Notes under the pieces: model-generated
Databases searched by the model: none
Seen by the model: only the letters and a program-made list of their open reading frames with translations
What the model was told of the DNA's origin: nothing
Program-made: the position numbers and the translations under genes
Part shown: positions 17,544 to 36,813 of the stretch, piece after piece
Layout: every line of letters begins with the position of its first letter
Position numbering within the stretch: position 1 is the stretch's first letter
Virus record (IMG/VR): IMGVR_UViG_3300020465_000038
Coordinates: 1-40,144 of that record
Source: a virus
DNA length: 40,144 bases
Direction: 5' to 3' (one strand)

Positions 17544-19610
17544 ATGGAGAAGGAGTATATTGTTACTCTTAAGAATCGTAGTGATCTAGATGATTTCTAC
17601 ACAGATATGGAAGCGTCTACTGGTAGTGGACATATTCCAGATCATTCATGTGATTGTAAACTTCGTAGAGAGATTAGTAGAAACACACATTACCATTTAA
17701 CGGAAGCAGAAGTAATAGAATTAAGAAAAGACTCAAGGGTATTGGCAGTTGAAGAACCAGAAGAGAATAGAGGTATAGTACCAACCCCACTTTGGACTTA
17801 CCCTCAAAGTGGACTGTGGGATAGATCTCCTGATAGTCCTAATGATAAAAATTGGGCCCTAAAAAGATGTATGGATGATGCCAATACTATAGCTTGGGGA
17901 AGTGAATCTCAAAGTCTTAGTCAACAGGGAGGGACTTATAATACAACAAGTTCTGGTAGAAATGTTGATGTTGTAATTTTTGATAGACATTTGGAGTTTA
18001 ATCATCCAGAGTTTGCAGTTAATCCTGATGGGAGTGGTGGTAGTAGGGCAATTGCATTAGATTGGTTTGGTTCTGACTTTGCCAGTGTAAAGTCTAGTAC
18101 TGGTATTACAGCATCGTCTTATACTTACGGGGGTCTTAATAGTCATGGTACTCATGTAGCAGGAACTGTTGCTGGTAATACGCAAGGTTGGGCAAGAGAT
18201 GCAAACATTTATAATATAGAGTTTAGTAAAAGTAATATCGCAACAGAACCTTCTAATTGGGCTACTGTAATGTGGGATTATGTAAGATACTGGCACAATT
18301 ATATCAAACCAATTAACTCTGCAACAGGAAGAAAAAATCCTACAGTAACCAATCATAGTTGGGGGTATAGTTGGACTACCAATCCATTCGTTGATAATAT
18401 TACTAGTGTAACTCATCAAGGAACAACTATAGATTTAAGTAGCGAATCTCGTGCAACTAAAGTAAGGATATTGGAAGAATGTCAACTACCATCTGATAGT
18501 GATGGTTTAGCTTATTTGTCTTATCAACAACCATCAAGATATACTCCTCATGATGCAGATATTGCAGATGCAATTGCTGATGGTATAATAGTTGTTGCTG
18601 CTGGTGGTAATAGTGCATGGCCAGTGACTGTTTCTAGTGATAGTACTAATTACAGTAATTCAATTGTTCATTCTGGTGGTACAAGATATACGTGGACGGG
18701 AATGTCACCTGGTGCTGCTGATGATGTTATATGTGTTGGAGCATTTGGAGCAAAGGGAACAGGTGGAAAAGAATATAGAACAGGATTTAGTAATCATGGT
18801 AAGAGAATTGATATTTGGGCTCCTGGCCAGAATATTATGTCTTCTGGGAAGAGTGGACCTTATTCTGACCCAAGAAATTCCGTTTATAGATTATACTCGG
18901 AAAGTGGAACAAGTATGGCATCTCCTCAAGTATGTGGAGTGCTTGCTTGTTTAGCGGAACAGGAACCAAACCTAACACAAGCAGAAGCATTGCAGCATCT
19001 AGTTGAATATTCAAAGGCATCACAAATTAGTGATTATACAATTGCTTCTGAAACTAAGGGTTTTAGTATTGATGTTTATACTTCTGGTAGTTATACTTAC
19101 TATACAGTTGTTGGTGCTTGTAGAAAAGAAAGTAATTCTAGTTCTTTTAATTCAGATCTTTACATGTATGTTGGAGATACTCTTCAATTCACTGTTAATG
19201 CCAGTGGACATCCATTTTATATTAAAACAGCAGCATCTACAGGAACTGGAGATCAAGTAACTACAGGAACAATTACGGGTACACAAGGAACAACTAGTGG
19301 TACATTAAGTTGGAATACTACAGGAGTATCTGCTGGAACATATTACTATCAGTGTGGTAATCATGCTAGTATGGGTGGGGAGATTCAAATCATTAGTCCC
19401 ACTACTGCATCTGTAACAAATGGAGCAGATCAATATAAAGATTTTGAAAGATTAGATTTATCTAATGAGAATAATAGATTCTTACATTGTCCCAAAAAGA
19501 GACCAGATAGTGGTTCTATGTTTCCACATTCAAATCATAAAAATCGTAATGAATCTACTACTGGTGTTAAATACCCTAGATCGAATGTTACTTTCACAAA
19601 AGCGAGTTAA
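17544..19610 (+). CDS. Subtilisin-like (S8) protease fused to a cupredoxin domain
   Basis: A GGAGG Shine-Dalgarno sits at 17533-17537. Residues ~1-75 (YIVTLKNRSDLDDFY ... THYHLTEAEVIELRKDSRV) look like an I9-type propeptide. The S8 core follows with all key residues: Asp147 (VDVVIFDRH), His201 (NSHGTHVAG), oxyanion Asn356 (VVAAGGN) and Ser457 (SGTSMASPQ). Asp147 is followed by Arg-His, not the usual Thr/Ser-Gly. Residues ~510-620 form a blue-copper-like domain (DLYMYVGDTLQFTVN, GHPFYIKT, YYYQCGNHASMGGEIQI) with His556, Cys604, His607 and Met610, matching type-1 copper ligands; the C-x2-H-x2-M spacing is that of amicyanin. A ~65-residue polar tail ends the protein. There is no signal peptide, so it is presumably assembled into the virion. 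It may process structural proteins or digest host surface proteins. The protease call is strong, the copper call good; the combined function is unknown. Confidence 0.85.
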   Translation: MEKEYIVTLKNRSDLDDFYTDMEASTGSGHIPDHSCDCKLRREISRNTHYHLTEAEVIELRKDSRVLAVEEPEENRGIVPTPLWTYPQSGLWDRSPDSPNDKNWALKRCMDDANTIAWGSESQSLSQQGGTYNTTSSGRNVDVVIFDRHLEFNHPEFAVNPDGSGGSRAIALDWFGSDFASVKSSTGITASSYTYGGLNSHGTHVAGTVAGNTQGWARDANIYNIEFSKSNIATEPSNWATVMWDYVRYWHNYIKPINSATGRKNPTVTNHSWGYSWTTNPFVDNITSVTHQGTTIDLSSESRATKVRILEECQLPSDSDGLAYLSYQQPSRYTPHDADIADAIADGIIVVAAGGNSAWPVTVSSDSTNYSNSIVHSGGTRYTWTGMSPGAADDVICVGAFGAKGTGGKEYRTGFSNHGKRIDIWAPGQNIMSSGKSGPYSDPRNSVYRLYSESGTSMASPQVCGVLACLAEQEPNLTQAEALQHLVEYSKASQISDYTIASETKGFSIDVYTSGSYTYYTVVGACRKESNSSSFNSDLYMYVGDTLQFTVNASGHPFYIKTAASTGTGDQVTTGTITGTQGTTSGTLSWNTTGVSAGTYYYQCGNHASMGGEIQIISPTTASVTNGADQYKDFERLDLSNENNRFLHCPKKRPDSGSMFPHSNHKNRNESTTGVKYPRSNVTFTKAS

Positions 19611-19615
19611 ATAAT

Positions 19616-22117
19616 ATGGCAATTAGAAATCCTAAAATATTTGGTCTAAATGTTAGGACTCATTTAGCAGATGTTCTGAATAAAACTCAGTCATTAAGAA
19701 ATATTGGTTTACCACCTTTTGATCTTGAGATTATTCGTGGGTCTGCTAATGCAGGTATGACTCGACATGATTGGATTAGTTTTTCTAGATTAAAACAACC
19801 AGTATATGAGATATTAGATAGTTATCAGCATGAATCTAGAATTTATCAAGATATTTTACGTTTAAGGGCAGGAACAGATCAGACTTTATTTGGCAACTTA
19901 GCAATCAATGGATCTTTAAGTGGTAATGCAATCAGATATAGGTATTATGATTGGGATAATGCTACTTTTAGTGTAGCAGATATATCTACTTCAAGAGTGA
20001 GTGCATGGAGTTCGACTGTTCCAGAACCAATACCAGTAACTGCTCCCATTTCATATGGTGCAAGAGTTGGAATTGCGACTGCTACAGGAGGAGGAAGACT
20101 TGATTTTGGACCATCAACTACAACTGGGCCACGATTACAAACAAGTATAGTTCCTGAAGCAAAGGAATTTGATTCGGAATTTCCTACTTCAAGAATACAA
20201 ACGAAGATTGGTACTGAAACAGTATATCTTTATGCAATGAAAGGAATTCCATTTGTATTGAAGGGATTCTTTAGAAATATAAATGCTACTATTAAACTGA
20301 CCAGTTTAATTAATGGTACTCCTGCCAGTTGGAAGTTTGTGGAGACTGCAAATTCAAATAGATATGTAAATTTTACTAATATAGGTGGAACAACTTCTAC
20401 AGTTTATTTTAGATCTTCTTCATCAAGAGAAAGGTTTATTAAATTTTATTATAATCCAGATAATATATCTGCAATTAGTATTACATCAGCAAATATTAGA
20501 GAGTTACCACCAGTTCAATTAATTAGTTGCACTGATCTTAATTTTGCATATAATGATTTTAAATTATTTCCTAACTTTGCATTTGTTGCTCCACAATTAC
20601 AGCAATTGCAAGTTCAGAGAAATCCTTTTTACTTGAGTGATATTGAATCTGAAAGATTTTTTAATGGTTTAATATTGGATAAAATTCCTAGTAATTTAAG
20701 GCATTTATATATTGAAGGGACTTTTTATGGATCTATTCGAGGTGATGGTGGATCAATTAGTGGAACTGATATTATTCCAAATAAACTGCCTAATCTAAAT
20801 ACCTTCCATTGTGGAAGAGGTGGTGGTGCATATTTCCATCCAGATGATTTAGATAGTAGTTGTAAGTTACCTAATATACCAAGTACTGTTACTAGTTATC
20901 AAACATATTCTAATAATTTCCAAGCAATTGGAACATCAGATTCTAGTAATGGAAATAATCAGCAACATACAAATCCTAATTTTCCAAATGGAAGTTACAA
21001 TGTAGTAGATGCTCCAAATCTTACTTATATTCATATAGGTAATAATTATTATCTTCAAGATAATACTAATGCTCGATTTATTAATTTGGCAAGTAAAACT
21101 AAACTAACTCATCTTTATACTCATAGTACAGATTTGCAGATTCCTAATATGAGTAATAGTGCATCTATTCAAATTGCTTACCATTATTATATGCGTTCAG
21201 CTGGTGGTTTATTTGAGGTTAGTACATATAAGTATGACGGATGTGGTTCATTAAGTTACTTGCATTGTTATGGATCAAGACTTGATAATGATAGATTACC
21301 TAAGTTTACCAATCCAAGTTTATATTATCTTGATTTACGTTATACTAGAATTAAAGGTGGTAATCCAAATGGTGATGAATCTAACGTAATTCATTCTGAT
21401 ACTTTTCAAGATTGTACAGAAATGGGTTACTGTATGATAGATTCTGGAAATCTTTTATCTAGTCCTATACATCCAAATGCTTTTATAAATTGTACTAATC
21501 TTTATTATTGGTGGTACCGTTCTTATGGAGCAACAGGTGGATCGCTTCCTACCCTTACTACATGTTCTAATTTGAGGTATATTTGGGCCCAACAAAATAA
21601 TTTTAGTGGTGGAGTTCCTTACTTCACAACTAATACTAATCTTTATTATATGAGATTATCGCATAATGCTTTTACTGGTCAGATTCCTGGATTTAAAAAT
21701 CTTAATAATCTTCGATACATTTACTTGTATAATAATCAGTTTACTTCGATGCAAGAATTGGGATCTCTTCCTTCGTTATATACATTTGAAGTACATAATA
21801 ATCAAATAGCAGGTGAGATTCCTGACTTTAGTGCATGTCCTAATCTTTATTATTTGATTATGTTTAATAATCAGTTTGATAGTTATAAACCAGGAGCATT
21901 TGCTAAAAATTATAGAATACGATATATAGATTTATCAAATAATAATTTAAACCAAACAGCAGTGGATCAACTTCTTTCTGATCTATTTGATAATTGGTCT
22001 GATTATAATCGTGGAGGAGTTACTATTAATTTACGTGGAAATGATACTCCAAGTGAAGAGGGATTGGAGAATGTAACAATTTTAAGATCCAAAGGATGGT
22101 CAATTACGATTAATTAA
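19616..22117 (+). CDS. Leucine-rich-repeat virion protein (833 aa)
   Basis: The N-terminal half (~1-300: NPKIFGLNVRTHLADVL, GSANAGMTRHDWISFSRL, GTDQTLFGNLAINGSLSG) matches a structural-protein family I know from T4-like cyanophages. From ~300 onward it becomes irregular leucine-rich repeats. The clearest lie at ~545-785, for example LRYIWAQQNNFSGGVP, LYYMRLSHNAFTGQIPGF, LRYIYLYNNQFTSM and IRYIDLSNNNLNQ. The 'N.FTG.IP.F' form resembles plant-type LRRs, with many Tyr in place of Leu. The end (GVTINLRGND, TILRSKGWSITIN) is the usual cap of phage LRR proteins. It lies five bases after the protease gene and one base before the next. LRR solenoids bind proteins or glycans, so receptor recognition is likely, but the partner is unknown. 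Confidence 0.85.
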   Translation: MAIRNPKIFGLNVRTHLADVLNKTQSLRNIGLPPFDLEIIRGSANAGMTRHDWISFSRLKQPVYEILDSYQHESRIYQDILRLRAGTDQTLFGNLAINGSLSGNAIRYRYYDWDNATFSVADISTSRVSAWSSTVPEPIPVTAPISYGARVGIATATGGGRLDFGPSTTTGPRLQTSIVPEAKEFDSEFPTSRIQTKIGTETVYLYAMKGIPFVLKGFFRNINATIKLTSLINGTPASWKFVETANSNRYVNFTNIGGTTSTVYFRSSSSRERFIKFYYNPDNISAISITSANIRELPPVQLISCTDLNFAYNDFKLFPNFAFVAPQLQQLQVQRNPFYLSDIESERFFNGLILDKIPSNLRHLYIEGTFYGSIRGDGGSISGTDIIPNKLPNLNTFHCGRGGGAYFHPDDLDSSCKLPNIPSTVTSYQTYSNNFQAIGTSDSSNGNNQQHTNPNFPNGSYNVVDAPNLTYIHIGNNYYLQDNTNARFINLASKTKLTHLYTHSTDLQIPNMSNSASIQIAYHYYMRSAGGLFEVSTYKYDGCGSLSYLHCYGSRLDNDRLPKFTNPSLYYLDLRYTRIKGGNPNGDESNVIHSDTFQDCTEMGYCMIDSGNLLSSPIHPNAFINCTNLYYWWYRSYGATGGSLPTLTTCSNLRYIWAQQNNFSGGVPYFTTNTNLYYMRLSHNAFTGQIPGFKNLNNLRYIYLYNNQFTSMQELGSLPSLYTFEVHNNQIAGEIPDFSACPNLYYLIMFNNQFDSYKPGAFAKNYRIRYIDLSNNNLNQTAVDQLLSDLFDNWSDYNRGGVTINLRGNDTPSEEGLENVTILRSKGWSITIN

Positions 22118-23536: not shown

Positions 23537-26299
23537 TCAGGTCGAAGCTAATATTTTAAATGTTCCTGATGGTGTTCCTATATCTATTTTTGTTGTGACA
23601 TCATCTGAACTGGCGTTATAATTGGTAATTGATGCACCAGAACCAAATTCTGCATATAATTCATCAAATTTAATATTTCCATTAGCAATATAAAGATGTG
23701 GAAAAGCAGGAAGTGTATTTAATCCTTCTTCTGTTGCACTGAATGGAGGAGAAGTATCTGTTGGTGGACAGCATAACTGTCTATCATCTGCGTGAGTCGT
23801 TGCAGTGAATTGACTTCCACTGTTCATATTTGAAGTTAGACCAGGACTAAAATCAATCCTATCTGGTTGACCAGAAGTAACTATGACACCACTAATATTT
23901 GTACTAGTTGCAAAATTAAATCCTTGAAGACCCCAATTAGTATTTAAAGAAGATGCGGTTCCTTCTGCTACGAAAATAGTCTGATCTCCTGTTGAAGCGT
24001 TTGCAACAGTTATAAGGCATTTACGTTGACCATCAACACAATATGCTTGTAGTGATTTGTCAATAAGACCTTTTGATTCGTAGATATAAACTGATTGTTC
24101 ACCTAAAGTTGAAGTTGGAGCAGGATCTACCGTAATGGATCCTGGATCATCAGCATTGGCAGGAGGTGTAACATCTGTAATTCGAGTATATGATGATAGA
24201 TTATCTCCAATTGCAATTTGGTTTTTCATGATACTACCAATACCAAGAGTTCCATCTCCAGAAACAGTTGATTGTGATGCATGTGTAACCTTACTTAATG
24301 GATAGTTTATAACTGTTGTCGTATCACCATCATCATCGTCATCATCATCACCATCAACATTATAATCAGCAACATTTACACCATCTACATAGCAATTATC
24401 AAAGTGATTGCCAGATATACTATCATTATCGTTATAAACATACCTAATACTAACGGTTCCTGGCCCATCTGCTAATAGACCGTATCCATCCTCACTCCAT
24501 CGTGGATTATCTGCTGTACTAGAACCAGTTTGAATTGTCAAACTAGCATTAGTATCAGTACCATCACCATCATAAAAATTCATTGTTGTCGCATTTGGTT
24601 TGTTTCCATATGCAGTCCCACCAGCAGCAGTATCAGGATGCAAGTTATCATAAGTTACTGTCATACCCATTCTTGGTGTAATTACACTTCCATTTGAGTT
24701 TTTGGTGAGAATTCTTTTTACGTATCCACGATGATTGATGAAATCGTATGTTGATGATCCAGTTCCAGTTGCTAATTTATCGAGAACAACAAATCTGTTA
24801 ATGGCAATTTCTGTAACTCTTGTGTTATTTGGAATATTATCTCCAACAACATAATTACCAATTTCAATTCCTGTTGTAGTGACTGGAATACCTTGCATAT
24901 TCATTATAGGACTTCCACTTGTCACAGATGCTTGTTTACCTGCAGGAACTCTTTTAATTGCAGATATTGAATCTTTTGCTCTATAGGTAATATCAACTTT
25001 TTTGGTGGATTTTACCTTTACGTAATTATCGGCAAGTGTTGTACTACCGATTCCCATTTGACTACTACCACCAAATAATACAGAAGTATCAAAATAATCA
25101 TTAAAATCTCCTTTTGCTGAATCACTAAAATCATAATCTAGAGAGTATAGATTTTCTCTTCGTAAATGAACTCCACTACTATGTACTGGAGCTGAGTAGT
25201 CAATACCAAATCTTCTATCATAATCTCTAGAGTCAATATTTCTGGGGAAGAAGTATCTAAGTCTTATTCTATATTTACGGAAAGCAGTTAAAACATGTGT
25301 TGAAAATGTAGTACTAACACCTTCTCCTAAATTTCTAAAAAATGTATAATCTTGATTAGTTTGAGCAGAAGAAATGGAAGCGGTTTGTCCATCTACTGGT
25401 GTTAATGTAATTACACCACCAGATTGATCCATACTTTCTACTATAGGCCATCGTATTACACCACTAACTTCACCACTTTGAATGCCATTACCTTGAACTG
25501 ACATTCCAACACCAACAGTTCTTACTCTATTTGCTGTAATAGTGACTACGTTATCATTTGCAGTTGGATCACAACTTCCAGTAATTACTGTTGTAAGACC
25601 AACTCTTGCACTTGCAACATATGTGTCTCCTGCTCCAACTATATAACCTTGTTTTTCAAAATCCATAGTATAATATCCAGTAGAGTCAGGGTAAAAAGTA
25701 TGCACTCCAGTTTCAGTTGGTATGAAATATCCTTCCCATTTTACTCCACCGTCTGTAAAAACTGATCGTGGGTGAATTTTACCACTATAGTCAAAGTTTC
25801 CTGCTTCCCAAAAAGTATCATCTGGAATTTCACCTAAAGATGTAGTACCTAGAAAAATACTCGAATCGTTATTATTTGTATCAATTGGATCTCCATTTGA
25901 TTGGTTATAAACAAAGTCAGCATCAACTACAGGTATAATTTGGTCTTTTTGAAAATATTTTGCTGTTAATCCTCCTCCACCATTAAAACGTGGTACTCCA
26001 GTAAATATTTTAAATTGATCTAGACGATTCTGATATGTTATTCTTGGTCTAAATGCAACATTAATACCATTTGTTGTTGAAAATTGTGTAGCACTACCAA
26101 TAATTTTTTGATATCCCTCAGACGTTAATCCTCTTGTGAATATATTTCTAATTGCGTTTAAGTCTGAATAGATGAATGATGTATTTACTTCATCAATAAG
26201 GGTATTCAATAGATTATTTAATCCATCAGTTGTACTAGACATATCTGATAGATTATTATCTCTTCTAAGACCAAGCCTTTTATATACTTTTAATGGCAT
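23537..26299 (-). CDS. PA14-domain virion structural protein (920 aa), opposite strand
   Basis: The only minus-strand gene. The N-terminus (MPLKVYKRLGLRRDNNL, SDLNAIRNIFTRGLTSEGY) is a conserved cyanomyovirus structural family. From ~110 a PA14-like lectin fold is visible: GGLTAKYFQKDQI, FWEAGNFDYSGKI, GGVKWEGYFIPTETGVHTFY and GYYTMDFEKQGY, resuming at FRKYRIRLRYFFPRN (~340-360) after an insertion of ~110 residues. PA14 folds bind carbohydrates or act as adhesion modules. The middle contains 'GNYVVGDNIPNNTRVTEI' modules and an aspartate run (~648-658, encoded at 24325-24357). The C-terminus is Ser/Thr/Gly-rich without a known motif. It converges on the upstream operon through element B and diverges from the next gene by a 41-base region. 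Base use looks like the neighbouring genes, with no sign of foreign origin. Confidence 0.8.
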   Translation of the reverse strand: MPLKVYKRLGLRRDNNLSDMSSTTDGLNNLLNTLIDEVNTSFIYSDLNAIRNIFTRGLTSEGYQKIIGSATQFSTTNGINVAFRPRITYQNRLDQFKIFTGVPRFNGGGGLTAKYFQKDQIIPVVDADFVYNQSNGDPIDTNNNDSSIFLGTTSLGEIPDDTFWEAGNFDYSGKIHPRSVFTDGGVKWEGYFIPTETGVHTFYPDSTGYYTMDFEKQGYIVGAGDTYVASARVGLTTVITGSCDPTANDNVVTITANRVRTVGVGMSVQGNGIQSGEVSGVIRWPIVESMDQSGGVITLTPVDGQTASISSAQTNQDYTFFRNLGEGVSTTFSTHVLTAFRKYRIRLRYFFPRNIDSRDYDRRFGIDYSAPVHSSGVHLRRENLYSLDYDFSDSAKGDFNDYFDTSVLFGGSSQMGIGSTTLADNYVKVKSTKKVDITYRAKDSISAIKRVPAGKQASVTSGSPIMNMQGIPVTTTGIEIGNYVVGDNIPNNTRVTEIAINRFVVLDKLATGTGSSTYDFINHRGYVKRILTKNSNGSVITPRMGMTVTYDNLHPDTAAGGTAYGNKPNATTMNFYDGDGTDTNASLTIQTGSSTADNPRWSEDGYGLLADGPGTVSIRYVYNDNDSISGNHFDNCYVDGVNVADYNVDGDDDDDDDGDTTTVINYPLSKVTHASQSTVSGDGTLGIGSIMKNQIAIGDNLSSYTRITDVTPPANADDPGSITVDPAPTSTLGEQSVYIYESKGLIDKSLQAYCVDGQRKCLITVANASTGDQTIFVAEGTASSLNTNWGLQGFNFATSTNISGVIVTSGQPDRIDFSPGLTSNMNSGSQFTATTHADDRQLCCPPTDTSPPFSATEEGLNTLPAFPHLYIANGNIKFDELYAEFGSGASITNYNASSDDVTTKIDIGTPSGTFKILAST

Positions 26300-34428: not shown

Positions 34429-36813
34429 ATGCCTAATCTAGTCGGAATCGGAAATAGTCAAGTACCAACCAACGCAATGTTGGGTGGATTGGCGTACCAA
34501 GATTCTGTTGGTGAAATTAATATTGATGAAATAAAAGCAAAGACTGCTGATACTGCAGTAGATGTGTTTGTATATGATACTCGTAAGGATTCTGATGGTG
34601 GTGCATGGAGAAAAAGAACAAGTCATACTTCTTGGTATAATGAAGGTGTAAGTCAACAAAGAGGAGCAAGAAAAGAATTTCCTGCAGTTGCAATACTTGT
34701 TGCTTATAATAATGGATTAATAATATATGATGGTGATGACCCCAATCTACCTATGTGGATGGAGATTTGGCAGTATCAGAATAATTCTAGTGGTAACACC
34801 AATTGGTGGGGTGGAAGTGGTAATGCCACTTCTGTTGCTGCGATAAATGGAACAGTCGTTTTGGGTGGATCGGGAACAAGAAATCTTCATTTTATCAACG
34901 ACAGAATGAGTTTATTTTATACTGCAGCAAGTGGTAATTATACTCAATTTGGAGGAATATCAGATAGAAATATTGCATATACTTCTTGGTCTGCGTCTGA
35001 CGAGTATTATGCTCAACTTCTCAATGCTGGCGTGAATGATGTCGCAATGACTATATTACCAAACGCACCGATTGATGCTAATACTGGACTTCCAATACCT
35101 ACAATTGCTGTTGCGACTGATGGTGGTTTATCAATTATTAATCATTCCGTTGAAGTATTTCATTATACAAGAAGTGGTGGTACTGAATTTACTGGGTCAG
35201 TTGCTTTTGATGAAAATAATGATTTGATTGTTTCTTGGGGAACTGTTGCTGCTGGATGGAGACATATATCAAGATTTACAGAACCATTTGCAACTGATAC
35301 TTCTTTTGATACTGGTCAAGGATATCTTGCCACTGATTTGGGACTTGGTGGATCTGCTGCTGGCGGTAGTTCAGGTGCTGTAAAAATCTCTAATAATGGA
35401 AGAGCTTTTGCAATTGATTATGACGGTAAGGTAAGTGATAGATTGGGACTATTAGATTTAGTTGATGGTTCTACATCAAAAAGTTTAGGTGCTTTTATTG
35501 ATAGTAGTGCCAATAGTGGATGGTGTGTTGGTGATATTACTCGTGCATGGCTTTGTAGCACTGATACAACTAATGTAACTGGATCTCAAAAAATTACGAA
35601 TGGAACTTTTGATTCTAATGTAAATAATTGGACTAATGCTAGTAATGGTACTAAATCTCATGTTAGTGGACAATTAAGAGTTACATCAGGTGCTGGTGGA
35701 TATGCAAGTGTTTATCAAGCAGTGACACTTGTAGTTGGAACAAGATATACAGTGGAAGGATATGTACATGCTGGTACTGCTTTGAATGGAGCAGAGATGT
35801 TTATTTCAACAAGCACTGCTGTTAATAGTGGTAGTGCTTCTGGTGCTAGTGAGCTTGTTCCATATGGTAATTGGAAATCAATTCATATAACATTTACTGC
35901 TACTGCTACAACAATGTATGTGCATTGTCAGCCACGGGCATATAATGCAAATGAATACTCATCTTTTGATAATGTTTCACTTAGGGAAGCAGAAGATGAT
36001 ATGTCTATTAATAAAAAAGGAATTTGTGTATATGGAACAGTACCAAAACAAGTTGTTGCTAGTGGTGCTGAATTAGTATCTTACGGTCCTTTCAGTAACA
36101 GTAATTATCTCGATCAATTATTTGATGAAGATTTTGAGTATGGAACAGGTGATTTTAGTGTATCATTATGGTTTAAAACTACTGGAACTGGTATTGAAAC
36201 ATTCCTGCGTAAAGGTATTGGTGGTAGTGATTATGGGGCTTTTGAAGCATATATGCATACTGATGGTGGTGCAGGTAGAATTAGATTTGTACTTAAAGAT
36301 AATGACGGGAGTAGTTATACCATATGCCAATCTGCCCAATCAGGATGGAATGATGGATATTGGCATCATTATGTTGGTGTAAGACAAGGTGCTTTACTTA
36401 GACTTTATCTTGATGGTAGATTAAATAATTCTGCTGAGACTGATGTAACACATAGTGTGGCTTGGGCTAGTATGAGTAGTCATTTAACAGTTGGACGTTC
36501 TAGTTCTGCTGCTAATCCAGCAACAAATACTTATTTGACACTTGTGAAAATAGCAGGAGATGCACCAACAGATGACCAGGTTAAAAAGATTTATAATGAT
36601 GAGAAAAGTTTATTTGAACCGAATGCTAAGTGTACATTATATGGATCTTCAAATACAATAACTGCGGTAGCATATGATGATTCAACTGACACTGTATATG
36701 CTGGAACATCTGCAGGACGTAGTGATTTCTCTGGTCTAACTAGAATAAATAATACAACAACAGCAGTTACGACTGCTATAGCGGTATCCAATGAACTTGT
36801 AGCAGAGCAATAG
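34429..36813 (+). CDS. Beta-propeller-like adhesin with inserted CBM-like and LamG domains (794 aa)
   Basis: Strong Shine-Dalgarno AGGAGAG nine bases before the ATG. Residues ~35-385 read as propeller-type blades (AVAILVAYNNGLIIYDGDD, TIAVATDGGLSIINHSVEVF, VAFDENNDLIVSWG, AVKISNNGRAFAIDYDGKV). A galactose-binding/CBM-like sandwich follows (ITNGTFDSNVNNWTNA ... FDNVSLREAE, ~389-523). Next is a LamG/concanavalin domain (DFSVSLWFKTTGTGIETF, WHHYVGVRQGALLRLYLDG, ~575-695). The final ~60 residues return to propeller form (ITAVAYDDSTDTVYAGTSAG), so both sandwiches seem inserted before the closing blade. No catalytic residues are evident, so glycan recognition is the likely role. The stop is one base before the next ATG, so the pair is probably co-translated. 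Confidence 0.75.
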   Translation: MPNLVGIGNSQVPTNAMLGGLAYQDSVGEINIDEIKAKTADTAVDVFVYDTRKDSDGGAWRKRTSHTSWYNEGVSQQRGARKEFPAVAILVAYNNGLIIYDGDDPNLPMWMEIWQYQNNSSGNTNWWGGSGNATSVAAINGTVVLGGSGTRNLHFINDRMSLFYTAASGNYTQFGGISDRNIAYTSWSASDEYYAQLLNAGVNDVAMTILPNAPIDANTGLPIPTIAVATDGGLSIINHSVEVFHYTRSGGTEFTGSVAFDENNDLIVSWGTVAAGWRHISRFTEPFATDTSFDTGQGYLATDLGLGGSAAGGSSGAVKISNNGRAFAIDYDGKVSDRLGLLDLVDGSTSKSLGAFIDSSANSGWCVGDITRAWLCSTDTTNVTGSQKITNGTFDSNVNNWTNASNGTKSHVSGQLRVTSGAGGYASVYQAVTLVVGTRYTVEGYVHAGTALNGAEMFISTSTAVNSGSASGASELVPYGNWKSIHITFTATATTMYVHCQPRAYNANEYSSFDNVSLREAEDDMSINKKGICVYGTVPKQVVASGAELVSYGPFSNSNYLDQLFDEDFEYGTGDFSVSLWFKTTGTGIETFLRKGIGGSDYGAFEAYMHTDGGAGRIRFVLKDNDGSSYTICQSAQSGWNDGYWHHYVGVRQGALLRLYLDGRLNNSAETDVTHSVAWASMSSHLTVGRSSSAANPATNTYLTLVKIAGDAPTDDQVKKIYNDEKSLFEPNAKCTLYGSSNTITAVAYDDSTDTVYAGTSAGRSDFSGLTRINNTTTAVTTAIAVSNELVAEQ

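Follow-up and report, generated by a model that had tools for sequence, protein, structure and literature searches.

The window, a 40,144-nt stretch of an uncultured virus record (IMG/VR record IMGVR_UViG_3300020465_000038), contains a gene for a 688-aa protease, in a stop-free frame that starts with an ATG 2 nt past the stop of the upstream gene and is preceded by a GGAGG motif (Table 1). The genes around it belong to tail fibre, tail and virion structural families. The syntenic partner of the upstream gene is annotated "baseplate wedge subunit and tail pin" in phages S-H38 and S-CREM1, and the pair formed by this gene and the protease gene is syntenic with S-H38, S-CREM1, ACG-2014j and S-H9-1. 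The region is a tail/baseplate cluster of a T4-like cyanophage (Kyanoviridae); the neighboring families and the synteny thus confirm the phage tail setting proposed in a preliminary description of this sequence. Immediately 3' of the protease gene, a plus-strand gene (19616–22117) encodes an 833-aa protein with leucine-rich repeats near its C-terminus (LRR_4, E 6.3e-14, residues 675–781), which are unusual in phage tail proteins. Further along, a 794-aa tail-cluster protein (34429–36813, plus strand) carries a Laminin_G_3/concanavalin-like lectin domain (1.9e-14), and a 920-aa gene with a weak PA14 match (23537–26299, minus strand) lies on the opposite strand within the otherwise plus-strand tail cluster.

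Table 1. Features of the protease locus; coordinates are positions in the window.
Feature	Coordinates	Strand	Evidence
Upstream neighbor, 373 aa	16421..17542	+	phrog_15343/9627
Subtilase with C-terminal cupredoxin domain, whole gene, 688 aa	17544..19610	+	phrog_9158, E 4e-114, residues 1–492
Probable subtilase propeptide, residues 1–80	17544..17783	+	Predicted structure
Peptidase S8 catalytic domain, residues 135–495	17946..19028	+	Pfam PF00082, 1.5e-25; Asp147, His201, Asn356, Ser457; structure matches
Cupredoxin domain, residues ~500–618; ligands His556, Cys604, His607, Met610	19041..19397	+	Profile, model, ligand conservation
Conserved C-terminal tail of the protease family, residues ~635–688, R..[ST]G..[FY]PR motif	19446..19607	+	

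Peptidase_S8 (PF00082) matched residues 139–489 of the 688-aa protein (E 1.5e-25), and Asp147, His201, Asn356 and Ser457 were kept in 14/14 aligned members of the protease family, which bears out the subtilase and the four residues named in the preliminary description. The protease part and the cupredoxin domain were folded separately, because a joint full-length alignment put both the catalytic Ser and the C-terminal domain in wrong places; their relative orientation is not defined by these models. The protease model, built from 14 sequences, had a pLDDT of 67.7, with lower values in loops and values below 50 in residues 82–133. It aligned with PCSK9 including its prodomain (Z 28.0, residues 3–493, 293 residues aligned, rmsd 3.6) and with unprocessed pro-subtilisin E (Z 26.4, residues 1–492). 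Both alignments start at model residues 1–3, and residues 1–80 were modeled as a beta-alpha-beta-beta-alpha-beta unit, mostly with pLDDT 80–89. Given these alignments with the PCSK9 prodomain and pro-subtilisin E, residues 1–80 most likely constitute the propeptide of a subtilase, and the protein may mature as a zymogen through self-cleavage; the subtilisin fold with an inhibitory N-terminal propeptide was found at the level of predicted structure.

The protein resembles members of peptidase family S8 (proteinase K/PCSK9-type) in its catalytic Asp, His and Ser, its oxyanion Asn, its propeptide fold and the structures matched over residues 3–493. Unlike S8 subtilases, it is encoded in a phage tail cluster and belongs to a family with its own C-terminal tail and swappable inserted modules. 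The tail follows the pattern N-x-Y/F-L ... R ... [ST]G-x2-[YF]PR, its motif was specific to the family among the loci tested (9 matches vs 0.05 expected), and it may anchor the protease in the virion. Four tandem head-to-tail paralogues of the tail protease occur at L006:877-7855 (also in L007), the last one ended by the contig end; each complete paralogue has an insertion of 133–145 aa near residue 439 that is not a cupredoxin.

When the C-terminal domain was searched alone, it scored a marginal 12.5 bits against Pfam, and amicyanin was reached in the PDB only at E 0.6–1, with an antibody chain nominally ahead. Since single-sequence searches gave only marginal cupredoxin matches, a profile was needed. 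The profile of 53 viral relatives matched plastocyanin (2.2e-8) and amicyanin (3e-7) in the PDB, and also rusticyanin and nitrite reductases; in the search alignment, its H, C, H and M fell on the four ligands of plastocyanin. Pfam Copper-bind was matched by 48/53 profile members (E up to 1). The AlphaFold2 model of the domain (pLDDT 88.0, pTM 0.83) had the Greek-key beta-sandwich of cupredoxins, and the best 50 Foldseek matches in the PDB were all cupredoxins or cupredoxin-domain-containing proteins. The top structural alignment was with the extra N-terminal domain of the Hyphomicrobium copper nitrite reductase (2dv6; Z 10.6, 98 residues, rmsd 2.8). The cupredoxin fold proposed earlier is therefore supported by model, structure search and profile alike, and the C-x2-H-x2-M spacing, which had been likened to that of amicyanin, matches amicyanin in the single-sequence PDB alignment. 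With plastocyanin, amicyanin, rusticyanin and the N-terminal domain of three-domain nitrite reductase, the phage domain shares the fold and the order and identity of the four type-1 ligands, its C-x2-H-x2-M loop being as in amicyanin. It differs from these cupredoxins in being a module of virion proteins and not a soluble electron carrier, in its low identity to them and in having no known redox partner.

The copper ligands were well kept among homologues. In the 90% non-redundant set, H556 was retained in 59/63 sequences, C604 in 62/63, and H607 and M610 in 61/63 each. The 53-row alignment, with a mean column identity of 37%, had four invariant columns, namely the Cys, His and Met ligands and one Tyr, and His556 was conserved at >=90%. 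Because the IMG/VR set had been gathered partly via the peptide pattern YYYQCGNH, which itself includes two ligands, the ligands were recounted in copies from phage records found by tblastn independently of the motif; H-C-H-M was intact in 21/21 of them, in keeping with the full ligand set (His556, Cys604, His607, Met610) of the preliminary description. This conservation indicates that the H-C-H-M site is under selection, and the site probably holds copper. Some viral copies are short of a ligand, so an incomplete site is compatible with the fold. The domain might hold no copper in vivo and be an ordinary beta-sandwich in which H-C-H-M is kept for folding or binds a different metal, zinc for instance; copper-free cupredoxin folds are known, other shuffled modules of phage tails do without a metal, and a few copies have lost ligands. 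We consider this reading unlikely, because the complete type-1 set is conserved and the ligands are the most conserved columns among otherwise highly diverged copies.

The position of the cupredoxin domain varied within the protease family. It lies ahead of the catalytic Asp in L001/L002, beside the catalytic His in L008, in a loop near residue 325 in L016, between the catalytic domain and the conserved C-terminal tail in the window protease, and past the C-terminal tail in the proteases of L005, ACG-2014j, ACG-2014e and S-H9-1. The proteases of S-CREM1, S-H38, S-WAM2, S-RSM4 and Sf-FR1 keep the catalytic part and the tail, and the cupredoxin is absent. Occurrence at five positions, with absence in at least five relatives, is the behavior of a promiscuous tail module. 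In a 72-row tree, the protease-borne cupredoxins formed one group in 0/200 bootstrap trees, and a single origin is possible when the well-supported branches alone are considered. A copper lock or switch governing the maturation of the protease, one of the functions raised in the preliminary description, would have the metal in the C-terminal domain control self-cleavage of the zymogen, a notion encouraged by the presence of a propeptide-bearing zymogen-type protease and a metal-site domain in one chain. It is very improbable, because the module is mobile and dispensable: it occupies five different positions in the family, sister proteases lacking the cupredoxin share the domain order and retain the catalytic residues, and many carriers of the module have no protease.

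Matches at E 0.001 or better were found in 19/25 whole phage records searched, a few of them weak or possibly petE; among these 25 records, the module was absent from T4, KVP40, Aeh1, HTVC008M, S-PM2 and S-CREM1. P-SSM2 carries it in proteins of the tail fibre and tail spike, P-HM1 and S-CAM1 carry it in giant structural proteins, and S-SSM5, P-RSM4, Syn9, S-IOM18, P-TIM40 and S-SZBM1 have it in gp9, the baseplate fibre connector (T4-GC 398 in S-SSM5 and P-RSM4). In S-SM1, it was found in a 409-aa frame at a similar position in the genome, and in L050 a relative of the gene upstream of the window protease bears the domain, which the window copy does not. Independently, a structure search of predicted viral proteins pointed to proximal tail fibres, S8 peptidases and tail fibre connectors of the baseplate wedge in cyanophages. 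Judged from this distribution, the copper domain is a mobile module that is not specific to the protease, and its recurrence in many tail and baseplate proteins of ocean cyanophages, nearly always with the four ligands intact, suggests that the particles of these phages carry copper.

Several further copies were observed. Giant structural proteins in L053, L054, L056 and L057 contain degenerate cupredoxin copies (E-C-H-M, with Glu for the first His) beside intact ones. The baseplate gene after gp9 encodes a second, highly diverged H-C-H-M copy in S-IOM18 (L111:2719-5208, E 6e-4) and in Syn9 (L109:2681-5167, E 0.6). In the lake phage Actinomycetia phage DSL-LC01 (L070), which has a non-cyanobacterial host, a module with intact ligands lies beside collagen-like fibre genes. 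In BFVD, marseillevirus/pithovirus "beta-sandwich proteins" (A0A481YVH3, A0A481Z6J5 and others) match the cupredoxin model at E ~4e-7 to 5e-6. Genome contigs were scanned with a 14-row alignment, the 53-row set being too diverse. The cellular relatives found were mainly from marine Bacteroidota, one of them adjoining a bacterial surface Ig-like domain. Origin of the module from phage or host plastocyanin (petE) is disfavored: possible petE short frames match only at ~1e-4, plastocyanin has a longer loop, and the cellular relatives found to be closer are mainly those of marine Bacteroidota.

Ig-like domains in structural proteins of tailed phages are promiscuous and are inserted variably in tail and fibre proteins. 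The cupredoxin module behaves like them, being a beta-sandwich with varying insertion sites that is present or absent in close relatives; this likeness is one of behavior and not of membership, and unlike Ig-like domains the module belongs to the cupredoxin family and has a conserved metal site.

Evidence from virions is available for one gp9-type relative. S-SZBM1_206 (498 aa, baseplate wedge) was detected by mass spectrometry in CsCl-purified virions with 9 peptides and 24.9% coverage (PMC9146016). Protein lengths, both its own and those of the adjacent genes (532, 498, 615 and 511 aa), assign it to L112:1178-2674, and the cupredoxin occupies residues 391–499 of this open frame, so a module-bearing protein is present in virions of a cultured cyanophage. 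The detection concerns the S-SZBM1 relative; the window protease may likewise belong to the virion. The presence of the module on gp9, which in T4 carries the annotation of a sheath-contraction trigger, also bears on a redox function, in which the copper centre would pass or sense electrons at the host envelope, for example to trigger tail contraction via gp9. In line with this idea, all the type-1 ligands are kept, the axial Met among them, beyond what a structural metal site needs. We nevertheless give it little credence, because no partner redox domain is visible, which speaks against electron transfer and leaves redox sensing conceivable; in addition, the carriers are very diverse (fibres, protease, spikes), and T4, KVP40 and S-PM2 manage without the module.

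Copper mimicry, in which a copper-uptake or copper-binding protein on the host surface would recognize the metal-loaded domain as its ligand, would fit the conservation of the ligands in tail-tip proteins of ocean phages. Its chances appear slim, since the metal is mostly buried in the type-1 cupredoxin fold, no host receptor is known, and the domain also occurs at baseplate and protease positions that need no receptor contact. The idea would be the copper counterpart of the "Trojan/Ferrojan horse" hypothesis, the closest published idea, which was proposed for marine phages from iron in HxH tail fibres (PMC11705849) and provides the precedent. The present proteins resemble the iron-binding HxH fibres (T4 gp37; PMC11705849) in having a transition metal in phage tail proteins, copper being the probable metal here. 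They differ in that HxH fibres are trimers whose paired histidines hold iron in octahedral geometry, whereas here the site is of type 1 and lies in a folded domain.

Collectively, we favor, with somewhat better than even confidence, a protease that carries a swappable, copper-loaded beta-sandwich on the tail tip for adhesion or as a rigid spacer, the copper being deduced from the ligands. The gene product would be a subtilisin-type protease associated with the baseplate or tail. It would be synthesized as a zymogen bearing a propeptide at its N-terminus, and the conserved C-terminal tail probably fixes it in the virion. The cupredoxin would be a mobile, surface-exposed beta-sandwich that T4-like marine cyanophages shuffle among tail proteins. 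Its complete type-1 site most likely binds one copper ion, probably loaded after the particle exits the reducing, copper-poor cytoplasm. The bound copper would rigidify the domain and perhaps shape a docking face, and the rigidified module may serve at the tail tip as an adhesion unit or as a sturdy spacer, the adhesion role being suggested by its location. The protease would trim host-surface (or baseplate) proteins during adsorption. Among the readings in the preliminary description, copper binding at the host surface, a possible function, comes nearest to this explanation.

A bolder proposal, which is doubtful but deserves statement, is that particles of T4-like marine cyanophages are copper proteins, the type-1 centres of their baseplates, fibres and tail proteases acquiring the metal outside the cytoplasm and being required for host attachment or tail triggering, such that copper availability would tune infection in the ocean. 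Both folds are already known; new with respect to the open-access literature searched are their union in one phage tail protein and the broader occurrence of a mobile type-1 copper module in the baseplates and fibres of cyanophages. No paper on cupredoxins in phage virions was found in that literature, subscription papers being mostly outside its scope. The analysis identifies a mobile tail module that Pfam recognizes marginally, and the cultured phages Syn9, S-SM1, S-SZBM1 and P-RSM4, with the domain on gp9-type proteins, make the copper idea directly testable. Were the domain to hold copper, the tails of many ocean cyanophages, cultured and uncultured, would bear protein-bound copper. After the iron reported from tail fibres, this would be a second metal of virions, and it would matter for adsorption, for the stability of the particles and for trace-metal chemistry.
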